Shown in pieces: positions 24,948-50,553 of a stretch of DNA of 64,000 bases. Position 1 is the stretch's first letter, and every line of letters starts with the position of its first letter. The notes beneath the pieces were generated by a model. That model was not told where the DNA came from. It was given only the letters and a program-made list of their open reading frames with translations, and did no database searches. Location: NCBI RefSeq assembly GCF_000336575.1, contig NZ_AOPO01000001.1:682001-746000 (forward strand). Reading direction: 5' to 3'. Source of the stretch: Vreelandella titanicae BH1 (GTDB lineage: Bacteria > Pseudomonadota > Gammaproteobacteria > Pseudomonadales > Halomonadaceae). Both the position numbers and the translations under genes were made by a program.

Positions 24948-25583
24948 TCAGCCAATATGCTGGCGGACTTCCTGTAACTGGAGACGCAGGCTTTCTATCG
25001 GTTGCGCACCATTAATCAGCCATCTGTCTTCAACAATCAATGTCGGCACCGACTGAACTCCCAACTTGGACGCGAGGTGGTGATCCTTTTCCACCGCCTG
25101 CTGAGTTGTTTCCGAGAGCACGTCTAGATCATAACGAACCATGTCGAGCCCGATTTCTTCAGCCAGTGATCGCAGCACCTGGCTATCACCGATATTGCGG
25201 CTCTCCGTCAGGTGCGCGTACTGAACACGATCAAACATACGCCAGTGCCCTTGTTGACCTGCCTGCATTTCAGCCGCCTTACACGCCAGCGCGCCAGGCA
25301 TCCCGTGAGGATACTCGAAGGTTTGAGCACGCATACCATCAATGTTGAAACGCGGGGTATCCTCTGCGGCAACGCATTTTTCCCAATGACCGAGAATTGT
25401 TTCTTTGGCATCACCCATAGAGCCGAAGGCTTCAAGCATGGCTTCTCTACTTGCTTGAAGCGTAAAGCACTGGTGATGCACATCCAGGTTCAACTGCTTG
25501 GCAAGCGAGTGCAGCCGGGGAGAGAGAAGGTAACACCAACCGCAAACAACATCGTGCACAAACACCACCTTTAATGGATGCAT
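24948..25583 (-). CDS. DsbA-family (FrnE-like) thiol oxidoreductase, cytoplasmic
   Basis: 211 residues with an N-terminal thioredoxin-fold motif Cys14-Gly-Trp-Cys17 (VVCGWCYLLSPRL) and a C-terminal cis-Pro loop GVQSVPTLIVEDRWLINGAQ. No signal peptide, so it should act in the cytoplasm, as FrnE/DsbA-like proteins do. It starts 15 bp after wrbA on the same strand and is likely its operon partner, both under the divergent LysR regulator. A role in thiol/quinone stress is inferred. Confidence 0.85.
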   Translation of the reverse strand: MHPLKVVFVHDVVCGWCYLLSPRLHSLAKQLNLDVHHQCFTLQASREAMLEAFGSMGDAKETILGHWEKCVAAEDTPRFNIDGMRAQTFEYPHGMPGALACKAAEMQAGQQGHWRMFDRVQYAHLTESRNIGDSQVLRSLAEEIGLDMVRYDLDVLSETTQQAVEKDHHLASKLGVQSVPTLIVEDRWLINGAQPIESLRLQLQEVRQHIG

Positions 25584-48062: not shown

Positions 48063-48974
48063 TTACTCGTTGAGCGGTTTTGGCGGCTCCCAATCCGAAC
48101 GATTAGCTAGAAATTCCGGCCTGGGCCGGTTACCGCAGTAAGGGTCGTGCAGCGTGTTTTCAACACTGTTGTAAACAAAGAACAGATTACTTCTCGGCCA
48201 GCAAGACATATTTATGTTCGAGCCGTGCATGGTATTGCATTCAAAGATCACCAGCGAACCGGCAGGCCCCTTGGGAGCTTCGATATCGTTTTCTAGCATT
48301 ATCTCGCGAAGGCTACTGGCTGGGGGCACGCCCACCTCTTGGCTTTTCAGCGACTCTTTATAGTTATTTTCCGGCGTTCGTCCGACACACGGAACAAAAT
48401 AATGATGCGAGCCAGGGATCAACATTAATGGGCCGTTAAATTCACCGTTGTCAGTGAGTACGATGGAGCAACTTAACGCACGCATACGTGGCATGCCGTC
48501 TTCGCTATGCCATGTTTCAAAGTCGGAGTGCCACTCAAACCCTTTGCCTTTAAAACCTGGTTTATAGTTAATCCGTGACTGATGAATATATACATCGCTG
48601 CCAAGAAGTTGCTTAACAATCGCCAATAGCTTGGGATCCTGGGTCAAGCGCTGAAAGCGTTTTGAAACATCGTGGATGCCGAAAATAGTACGAATCTCTT
48701 CACGCCCAGGTTCAAGAATAGTGCCTTCTGAAAGTTTCAGATCAGCATCGTCTTCATATTCGCGCAGTTCTTTAAGAAAAACCTGCATGTCATCAGCGTC
48801 AAAAAATCCTTCAAACGATAGAAATCCCTTTCTTTCGTACTCATCAATTTCTGATTTGCTTAAGGGGCCATTCGCAAGCTGTGACTCATCGCCGTATACC
48901 ACCGGATCAATGCGTTCAAACATTCCCAACTTTCGTTCCAAGCGAGTAGGGAATAAGTCTTGTGTATCGTTCAT
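48063..48974 (-). CDS. ectD: Ectoine hydroxylase EctD
   Basis: 303 residues from the ATG at 48974 (GGAGGAG site). Fe(II)/2-oxoglutarate dioxygenase with iron ligands His149 and Asp151 in [20 protein letters not shown] and His250 in [12 protein letters not shown], and 2-oxoglutarate-binding Arg in [13 protein letters not shown]. The EctD signature is complete. It converts ectoine to 5-hydroxyectoine, a compatible solute. No ectABC genes are nearby; a separate ectD is known in Halomonas. Followed in operon by the LdhA-like gene. Confidence 0.95.
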
Positions 48975-49189
48975 GGCAAACTCCTCCGTTAGTATCCATG
49001 TCAAGTAACGCTTTTAGGGGCTACTTATAAAACGTAGACACCAAAACGCACCACAGCAATAACGCTATGTCAGCCGGCTCATCGTGCCAGCAATCATCGT
49101 TTTTAAATTCATGTTTTTAAAACAAGAGACGGAAAGCGAGGAGCGGGAGTCGAAAGGCAGTATAGGAAGCGAGAGGGTAGCAGAGGCTA

Positions 49190-49312
49190 AAAAAAGAAAG
49201 CCGCTCCAATGGAGCGGCAAAAAGACCGTGACTAGCAATGAGAGGGAGAAACCATGACAGGAAACTGGCGGTTTCTGTCCTGGTTGCCAGCGTCTCATCA
49301 AACGCTGACAAC
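49190..49312 (-). ncRNA. Fur-box small RNA, copy A (PrrF-like)
   Basis: About 123 nt, transcribed leftward. It has a promoter with a Fur box (separate entry), a 5' hairpin with an 11-bp stem GTTGTCAGCGT / ACGCTGGCAAC, a second stem around GACAGAAAC / GTTTCCTGTC, an unpaired stretch GGTTTCTCCCTCTCATTGCT followed by AGTCACGGTC, and a perfect terminator hairpin at 49200-49218 (GCCGCTCC / GGAGCGGC) followed by TTTCTTTTTTT. The unpaired part is identical in copy B. From memory, Pseudomonas PrrF RNAs have a similar region (TCTCCTCATCAGGCTAATCA), also in tandem copies and under Fur. It should repress iron-rich proteins when iron is scarce. Short frames on this strand are by-products of the structure. 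Confidence 0.8.
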
Positions 49313-49315
49313 CAC

Positions 49316-49344
49316 AATGTAATAGTTCTCATTTACCGCGTCAA
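49316..49344 (-). promoter_or_regulatory. Promoter with Fur box for small RNA copy A
   Basis: TTGACG at 49339-49344 and TACATT at 49316-49321 with a 17-bp spacer. The spacer contains GTAAATGAGAACTATTAC, a Fur-type site with core AATGAGAACtATT, so bound Fur would cover the promoter. Confidence 0.8.
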
Positions 49345-49426
49345 TACAAATACGAATATTTTTTATTACCACTTGCTGATAGCAAAGATCGCACCCGCAG
49401 GAGATGAATAAGAAACTGGAACCCAT

Positions 49427-49564
49427 AAAAAAGAAAGCCGCTCCATTGGAGCGGCAAAAAGACCGTGACTAGCAATGAGAGGGAGAAACCATGACAGTAA
49501 ACTGGCGCTGATTCTGAAATCAACAGCTGTCCTGGTTGTCAGCGTCTCATCAAACGCTGACAAC
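49427..49564 (-). ncRNA. Fur-box small RNA, copy B (PrrF-like)
   Basis: About 138 nt, upstream tandem copy. The first stem GTTGTCAGCGT / ACGCTGACAAC is again 11 bp; the G-U pair seen in copy A is A-U here, so the pairing is conserved. The middle hairpin is longer (TGATTTCAGAATCA). The unpaired CU-rich stretch and the terminator hairpin (49437-49455) are the same as in copy A except for the loop. The spacer between the end of B and the start of A is about 115 bp, comparable to the PrrF1-PrrF2 layout, so a longer readthrough RNA like PrrH is possible. Confidence 0.8.
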
Positions 49565-49567
49565 CAC

Positions 49568-49596
49568 ACTGTAATGGTTCTCATTTACCTCGTCAA
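49568..49596 (-). promoter_or_regulatory. Promoter with Fur box for small RNA copy B
   Basis: TTGACG at 49591-49596 and TACAGT at 49568-49573 with a 17-bp spacer. The spacer holds GTAAATGAGAACCATTAC, with core AATGAGAACCATT differing from the Fur consensus at two positions. Confidence 0.82.
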
Positions 49597-49638
49597 TACA
49601 AATGCGAATATTTTTTATTTAGTTTTGCAGCCTCGCTG

Positions 49639-50553
49639 TCAACTAACCAGCTGCAGCCAAAAAGGCAGGGTGAGCATGGCCAATAGGGTTTGGCCCGTAA
49701 TGATCGCCGCCATCAACTCGGCATCGCCACCCAGTTGGCGGGCTAGGATATACGCCGAGGTGGCGGTGGGCAGTGCTGCAAACAGCAGCGCTACGTCGCG
49801 GCTTACGGGATCCAGCTGCAAGATCCAGGTGAATGCCAATACCAGCGCGGGCATGAGCAGCAGTTTAACGCCATTGGTGGCCAGCACGCCGCGGTCAATG
49901 CGTAGCAGTGCCGCTGGGCGCAGCGCCACACCCACGGCCACCAACCCCAACGGCAGCGCCGCACGCCCCAGTAGCTCTACCGTATCTTGACTCCAGCCGG
50001 GCAAACCAACGTTCGTAAGGTTCAGACCAATGCCCGCCAAGCAGGCAAGGATCAATGGGTTTTTAATCAGCGCCATCGCACTTTTACCTACGCTAGCACC
50101 GCCGAGTGTGCCAGCGGCGACAAAGCTGGCCACACACATCACGTTAACTACTGGCACCATTAGTGCCACGGCGACGGCTGCGGTGGTCGCTCCTAAGCTG
50201 CCGTGTAGCGCGGCGGCGCCAGCAACGCCCACATAGGTATTAAAACGTACCGCGCCTTGAAATACCGACGTAAACGCCGCAGGCGTTAGCTGTAGCCAGC
50301 CACGTAAACGCCAGAGCAGCAAGCCAAACAGCGCCATCGCGCCCAGCAGCACCAGCGCCAAGCGGCCGACCGGCACTCGGCTTACATCCGCAGTGGCCAA
50401 GGTGCTTACCAGCATGGCGGGAAACAGCACAAAGTAGATCAGCCGCTCCATCTGCGGCCAAAAGGTGTCGCTGGGCCAGCGCCAATAGCCAAGCACGGCG
50501 CCCAGTAAGATCAACAGAAATAGTGGGCCTAAAGCGCCAGTGATACTCTCCAT
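49639..50553 (-). CDS. AEC-family (auxin efflux carrier-like) transporter
   Basis: 304 residues with about ten hydrophobic helices (LGPLFLLILLGAVLGYW at the N-terminus, NPLILACLAGIGLNLTNVGLP in the middle, ATSAYILARQLGGDAELMAA near the end, a typical AEC motif). These carriers move small carboxylates or amino acids. No substrate is suggested by the neighbours. The sRNA pair lies just downstream on the same strand. Confidence 0.85.
   Translation of the reverse strand: MESITGALGPLFLLILLGAVLGYWRWPSDTFWPQMERLIYFVLFPAMLVSTLATADVSRVPVGRLALVLLGAMALFGLLLWRLRGWLQLTPAAFTSVFQGAVRFNTYVGVAGAAALHGSLGATTAAVAVALMVPVVNVMCVASFVAAGTLGGASVGKSAMALIKNPLILACLAGIGLNLTNVGLPGWSQDTVELLGRAALPLGLVAVGVALRPAALLRIDRGVLATNGVKLLLMPALVLAFTWILQLDPVSRDVALLFAALPTATSAYILARQLGGDAELMAAIITGQTLLAMLTLPFWLQLVS

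Follow-up and report, generated by a model that had tools for sequence, protein, structure and literature searches.

The window analysed here, 64,000 nucleotides of the Vreelandella titanicae BH1 genome, holds two tandem minus-strand units within positions 49190-49596 (unit A, 140 nt; unit B, about 126 nt; Table 1). They are very probably two redundant trans-acting small RNAs, members of a divergent Halomonadaceae branch of PrrF, which would be released from Fur and repress iron-dependent TCA-cycle mRNAs. The units are structured RNA genes. As far as sequence comparison can establish it, their anatomy, their conserved structure, their homology to PrrF and a complementarity to acnB that varies with the core are shown.

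Anatomy and conserved structure of the two units

The AEC-type transporter gene is followed on the same strand by unit A, unit B, ectD and a 2-hydroxyacid dehydrogenase gene. An earlier note on this DNA had described two tandem units of about 125-140 nt between ectD and the transporter, each with a TTGACG-N17 promoter containing a Fur site and with a perfect terminator, and all of these elements were recovered. The measured lengths agree, the promoters read TTGACG-N17-TACAGT at 49596..49568 (A) and TTGACG-N17-TACATT at 49344..49316 (B), a Fur-like sequence overlaps both of them (13 and 12 of 19 positions), and in both units an 8-bp stem is followed by the T run TTTCTTTTTT. A search of the window's own genome found no copy besides A and B, the third row of that search being the palindromic 5' hairpin of unit A on the opposite strand.

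Table 1. Features of the two units and their neighbours, in window positions
Feature	Position	Strand	Remark
-35 hexamer TTGACG, unit A	49591..49596	-	sequence pattern
-10 hexamer TACAGT, unit A	49568-49573	-	sequence pattern
-35 hexamer TTGACG, unit B	49339..49344	-	sequence pattern
-10 hexamer TACATT, unit B	49316-49321	-	sequence pattern
Fur-like site, unit A, GTAAATGAGAACCATTACA	49570..49588	-	predicted; 13/19 positions of the assumed consensus
Fur-like site, unit B, GTAAATGAGAACTATTACA	49318..49336	-	predicted; 12/19 positions of the assumed consensus
A+T-rich block upstream of promoter A	49601..49619	-	conserved in relatives' upstream regions; putative function
A+T-rich block upstream of promoter B	49349..49367	-	conserved
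Small RNA unit A	49427..49566	-	140 nt; start approximate, set from the -10 hexamer
Small RNA unit B	49189..49314	-	about 126 nt; start approximate
5' hairpin, unit A	49533..49566	-	predicted fold and covariation
5' hairpin, unit B	49281..49314	-	predicted fold and covariation
Pairing core, unit A, AUGGUUUCUCCCUCUCAUUGCUAGUCACGGU	49462..49492	-	putative acnB-pairing part 49474-49483, sdhC-pairing part 49462-49475
Pairing core, unit B, identical to A	49225..49255	-	putative acnB-pairing part 49237-49246, sdhC-pairing part 49225-49238
Core segment set against the acnB site			candidate pairing, CCCUCUCAUU
Terminator stem-loop, unit A	49437..49455	-	T run to 49427
Terminator stem-loop, unit B	49200..49218	-	T run to 49189
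AEC-type membrane transporter (Pfam Mem_trans)	49639..50553	-	upstream neighbour, outside the RNA genes
ectD, ectoine hydroxylase	48063..48974	-	downstream neighbour, incidental

Taken by itself, the promoter pattern does not exceed chance (two found against 1.2 expected from shuffles). Nor are the two Fur-like sites alone rare in the window, the plus strand of which has six sites with 13 matches and 44 with 12 to what we take to be the 19-bp Fur consensus. Across 183 distinct units from all loci, a set that also takes in near-copies and relatives from other families, the highest match to this consensus averages 12.79 against 9.50 in shuffles and is the higher in 179 of the 183. The lowest matches include extra copies in G186 and Vreelandella alkaliphila, and also L070, which has an ordinary promoter. 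Inside the promoter of each unit lies a AAATGAGAACCATTACA- or AAATGAGAACTATTACA-type site, and in many halomonad copies a AATAAAAAATATTCGCATT-type block is found 5' of the -35 hexamer; an UP element and a second Fur half-site are two possible readings of this conserved A+T-rich block.

Both units fold far better than shuffled sequences (z = -5.46 for A and -5.96 for B, with none of 200 shuffles as good for either), and terminator-like sites number three in the stretch against 1.1 expected. The 5' stem, given as 11 bp in the earlier note, is longer in the predicted folds (unit A, 15 bp; unit B, 14-15 bp). The compensatory-type change that had been seen in this stem is, between the two copies, a one-sided A-U/G-U difference, and two-sided changes occur only among the aligned relatives. 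Similarly, the CU-rich stretch said to be identical and unpaired is identical in the two units, but the minimum-energy fold of unit B pairs its GGUUUCU part while leaving CUCUCAUUGCUAGUCACGGUC free.

Conservation provides the decisive evidence. From 21 genus loci and the window, 31 units were extracted, of which 30 were aligned (all but L020, which nearly duplicates L019). The family alignment of 24 sequences has two-sided changes at 14 of 21 pairs, and 94.2% of its cells are paired; a Rho-independent terminator is present in each unit, and its stem covaries. For four of the five covariation measures no shuffle out of 500 did as well, and for the remaining one (further pair types) 42 did; these figures lean toward the structure because it was set by hand on the same 24-sequence alignment. 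Slid versions of the structure gave at most 46.9% paired cells and five two-sided pairs. Two covariance models were used for searching, R1 with the RNAalifold structure, which mispairs the terminator, and R2 with the hand-set structure.

The transporter, the units and ectD share one strand, and of 41 Halomonadaceae loci compared with flanks of about 5 kb, 37 have the transporter gene upstream of the RNA, as would suit a cis-acting leader, an attenuator or the 3' end of the AEC-ectD region. We regard this cis reading as very improbable. Each unit has a promoter pattern and a terminator of its own, the core shows ordinary pairing to the ectD leader, and ectD adjoins the RNA in only 4 of the 41 relatives' loci, the window apart, from which we take its neighbourhood to be incidental. 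Additionally, two of the four loci without the upstream transporter (L028 in G007 and L081 in G187) hold second copies in genomes that also have a transporter-linked one.

It is scarcely credible that the units are not regulators at all but a gene for a small protein, a repetitive element or a relic without expression. An ATGAG frame does stay open in 15 of the 29 units that have this start, and copies have multiplied locally in some relatives. However, the structure covaries, and the window's own genome holds these two copies only. The coding reading was rejected because the remaining 14 units, unit A among them, do not keep the frame open, and because unit lengths differ by numbers that are not multiples of three.

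Relation to PrrF and spread among the Halomonadaceae

The reading that we prefer, two trans-acting RNAs of PrrF type, depends on how the units relate to the Rfam family of that name. At the gathering cut-off, the Rfam scan of the window gave no match. Below it, RF00444 (PrrF) aligns over positions 1-150 of its 150 with 41.3 bits (E 1.2e-5) and 35.6 bits (E 2.1e-4), and the RyhB and NrrF families are absent from the ten cmscan matches up to E 10. The earlier note had proposed a covariance search with the PrrF model and had named a poor score as grounds against its view; the match does run from end to end, but both scores fall far below the cut-off of 90.

About 18 of the 41 bits derive from the promoter part of the model. 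With that part removed, 23.1 bits are left (E 0.03), an E-value bettered in the same table by a leader family that is unrelated, so the match to RF00444 is not by itself proof that the RNA is homologous. A full score to which the promoter contributes nearly half would fit an analogue of PrrF, of separate origin and similar only through shared start-region targets and Fur-type promoters, and BrrF of Burkholderia shows that such analogues occur (PMC7377471). Nevertheless, we consider a separate origin improbable. R2, built from Halomonadaceae transcripts only, recovers the RF00444 places in four genomes of other families (G056, G037 with two, G042 and G055; E 2.4e-7 to 2.7e-4), of which G056 alone exceeds the Rfam cut-off (127.5 bits).

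The cores also speak against an analogue. That of g25 and g40 is GGTTATCTCCTCATCAAGCTAGTCACGGTC and that of G056 is GGTTATCTCCTCATCAAGCTAATCACGGTT, and a 29-nt core, GGTTATCTCCTCATCAAGCTA(G/A)TCACGGT, is common to them but for one base; G080, which lies inside the family, has the form GCTAATCACGG. In the window a core of GCUAAUCACGGU type runs into the CU-rich stretch, reading GCUAGUCACGGU, and continuous intermediates are found in other genera. The resemblance to PrrF that the earlier note had pointed out is thus upheld by the end-to-end RF00444 alignment, by the reciprocal R2 matches and by intermediate cores in genera such as g25, g40 and g45. Together with an order of hairpins, core and terminator that is the same as in PrrF, the reciprocal matches and the intermediates argue for homology, and by these comparisons the units are a divergent PrrF-type clade outside RF00444 as curated.

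The RNA is family-wide rather than peculiar to the window genome: R1, a transcript-only model, has matches in 177 of the 201 genomes of the family, covering 20 of 24 genera. Among the genomes of the window's genus that are listed, 50 of 50 have an R1 match, some of them being seeds of the model, and 16 of these 50 carry at least two copies; the listing covers all but four of the 24 family genomes that lack a match. R2 matches 21 of 23 chosen genomes and 20 of 22 genera, some of which are genera where R1 found none. The exact pattern of the window-type core occurs in 69 stretches of named genomes, all of them Vreelandella or Halomonas save one Billgrantia and one Halovibrio. At E <= 0.001, RF00444 itself has matches in 25 of 58 relatives and in none of 14 control genomes, while at the Rfam cut-off none of seven Halomonadaceae loci passes and L012, from family f21, does. 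An order-wide R2 search of 293 genomes under strict filters, which missed G055, found matches in 38, of which 26 lie outside the family. One locus of family f38 (L329, G461:C3:1547579-1548840) has five R2 matches, one about every 280-300 nt, a PrrF-like array outside the Halomonadaceae.

The literature searched, a scope that most subscription papers fall outside and that leaves absence unproven, yielded no description of a native PrrF in halomonads. By our analysis most of the Halomonadaceae sampled would have an iron-sparing RNA of the PrrF kind, with the tested loci giving no Rfam match at the curated cut-off. The family includes industrial producers of ectoine and bioplastics. A native PrrF relative might compete or cross-talk with silencing tools built on a PrrF1 scaffold, and the scaffold of P. 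aeruginosa PrrF1 is in use for gene silencing in Halomonas bluephagenesis (PMC12164125, PMC13414033).

The pairing core and its candidate targets

The core shared by both units, CCCUCUCAUUGCUAGUCACGGUC, is mostly single-stranded and is predicted to pair over 10 bp with the acnB Shine-Dalgarno region of the same genome. The corresponding pattern RATGAGAGGG occurs eight times there: two occurrences lie in the RNA genes, one stands at acnB, immediately 5' of the GTG start, and five are elsewhere, with no frame of at least 60 codons beginning just downstream; the reversed control pattern occurs 12 times.

Across the family, the acnB ribosome site differs with the core. Seven typical genomes of g1, the window's genus, have a CCCTCTCATTGC core, and in 7/7 of them acnB has AATGAGAGGG or GATGAGAGGG. 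In g41 the core is CTCCTCATTGC in five of seven genomes, with CAATGAGGG at acnB in 5/5. Most other genera have CTCCTCATCAAGC, and in most of these the acnB site is CTTGATGAGGG, TTGATGAGGG, TGATGAGGG or GATGAGG(G/A). Over 40 genomes, the core and acnB of the same genome score 16.12 against 13.65 when permuted, a value that none of 20000 permutations reached. When each of 20 genera is represented by a single genome, 992 of the 20000 reach the observed score and the association is weak. Co-variation with the core has a z of 4.75 for acnB and of -0.85 to 1.70 for 11 other genes (21 genomes, two of the 11 control sets having five genomes each). When the paired traits are mapped on an acnB tree, they undergo 5 and 5 changes, or 4 and 2, and independent pairs agree one to three times and never oppose, events too few to decide. 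Pairing with acnB is poor in 6 of the 40 genomes (G203, G094, G058, G064, G008 and G184) and takes another register in G073. Judged from these comparisons, core complementarity to acnB varies with the core across genera, few independent events underlying it, and the matched changes offer a natural experiment on the joint change of a small RNA and its target.

Two genomes have altered cores, split by an insertion in G184 (L086 5016-5163) and partly duplicated in G008 (L073 5022-5156). In both, the acnB ribosome site is without the usual complementarity.

Pairing energies were computed in 14 genomes, selected to be widely spread, for five genes and against a background of 312 start regions. Long duplexes with large loops gave much the same energy whichever gene was taken, even for the leuC control, and short-helix measures were used in their place. 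By these, a pairing of GCCGTGAATAGCAA with UUGCUAGUCACGGU spans the GTG start codon of sdhC in 14/14 genomes, with background fractions of 0.013-0.051 (within 0.05 in 13 of the 14), a result nearer one observation than 14 because the site is conserved and coding. Within 5% of the background were acnA in 5/14 genomes, acnB in 3/14, leuC, the intended control, in 3/14, and sod in 2/13, one sod locus being cut off. As acnB does no better than leuC, it is not outstanding on energy in single genomes. Of the sdh, sod and acn targets suggested in the earlier note, acnB and sdhC find support; a sodB-type gene is a known PrrF target, but the sod count is low and gives no support in g1. The likeliest mRNAs to be repressed by pairing would be those of acnB and sdhC.

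Near-full complements of the core in the window's own genome lie at one and six sites beyond the RNA genes, each with three mismatches; none is upstream of a recognisable gene start, and one is inside benC. About 20 codons into benC there is a 13-nt perfect complement of the core, AGAGGGAGAAACC (L157 near 1500, minus strand; C1:787599-787615). The product of this gene is the [2Fe-2S] reductase of benzoate dioxygenase, and benC may be one more target related to iron; the site was seen in a single genome. The strongest core helix of 200 background start regions (-18.3, at positions -22 to -6) falls on the start of a DSBA-domain gene at 24948-25583, minus strand.

Under the preferred reading of two PrrF-type RNAs, Fur with iron would block both promoters, and when iron is short RNAs of about 140 and 126 nt would be made, each ending at its own terminator. 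In mRNAs of iron-dependent TCA-cycle enzymes, of which acnB and sdhC (GUG start) are the best supported, the core would then pair around the ribosome-binding site or the start, and the resulting translational block or decay would spare iron. We infer transcription, Fur control, Hfq dependence (which is assumed) and repression by analogy: PrrF of P. aeruginosa is made in low iron and lowers expression of acnA, acnB and sdhCDAB, as reported in PMC2851614 and PMC4211561, and release from Fur and pairing at the ribosome site are proposed here on that model.

Extra copies, possible read-through and comparison with known systems

In some relatives the RNA forms arrays of up to five copies. L068 5578-6253 (G186) has three additional copies with a period of 183 nt and no promoter-like match on their own strand, and L067 5516-6180 (G212) has four with a period of 135 nt, each with a weak TTGGCA-N16-AAAAAT pattern only. 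Two additional copies with altered promoters are found in L022 4412-4768 (G009), and extra tandem copies, again with a 183-nt period, in L242 550-941 (V. alkaliphila). All retain the core and the terminator except the last copy of G212 and the second copy of G193, the cores of which have decayed. The extra copies may be transcribed by read-through or from other promoters, or they may be dying duplicates.

The tandem arrangement in the window would permit a hypothetical PrrH-like read-through RNA. More broadly, the locus could be a dosage array, in which one Fur-controlled promoter and partial read-through of terminators yield PrrH-like multimers with several cores, read-through in the window proceeds toward ectD, and the core and the acnB site evolve as a matched pair. 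We hold this joint reading to be unlikely, though it would account for the promoterless tandem copies in G186, G212 and V. alkaliphila L242. Since hydroxyectoine is synthesized by an iron enzyme, read-through into ectD would, if real, link hydroxyectoine synthesis to iron status.

Among the iron-sparing RNAs of other bacteria, RyhB of E. coli, NrrF of Neisseria and BrrF of Burkholderia control TCA-cycle and oxidative-stress mRNAs, and the window RNA would act alike; BrrF is described as having no Fur box of its own and being linked to hemP (PMC7377471). ArrF of Azotobacter, a close known system, is named in the reference list of PMC4211561.

The nearest comparison is with PrrF1 and PrrF2 of Pseudomonas (RF00444), which share with the window units a Fur-type promoter, in the window a predicted one, two hairpins, a GCUA(A/G)UCACGGU core and an intrinsic terminator. 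P. aeruginosa also has its PrrF copies in tandem, a placement that PMC4211561 describes as rare among pseudomonads, and they yield the 325-nt PrrH (PMC2851614). The halomonad second copies off the transporter locus (L028, L081) recall the distal PrrF pairs of most pseudomonads. As with PrrH, which responds to haem, the arrangement in the window would allow read-through, here to about 377 nt; halomonad relatives differ in having the longer arrays described above. The acn and sdh targets of PrrF were found by experiment, whereas those of the window RNA are predictions. The window units differ from PrrF in lying under the Rfam cut-off and in having a long first hairpin (14-15 bp), and some relatives carry extra copies without a Fur-type promoter. 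Finally, the core CCCUCUCAUUGC in the window replaces the CUCCUCAUCAAGC of G056 and most other halomonad genera, with a matched change at acnB.
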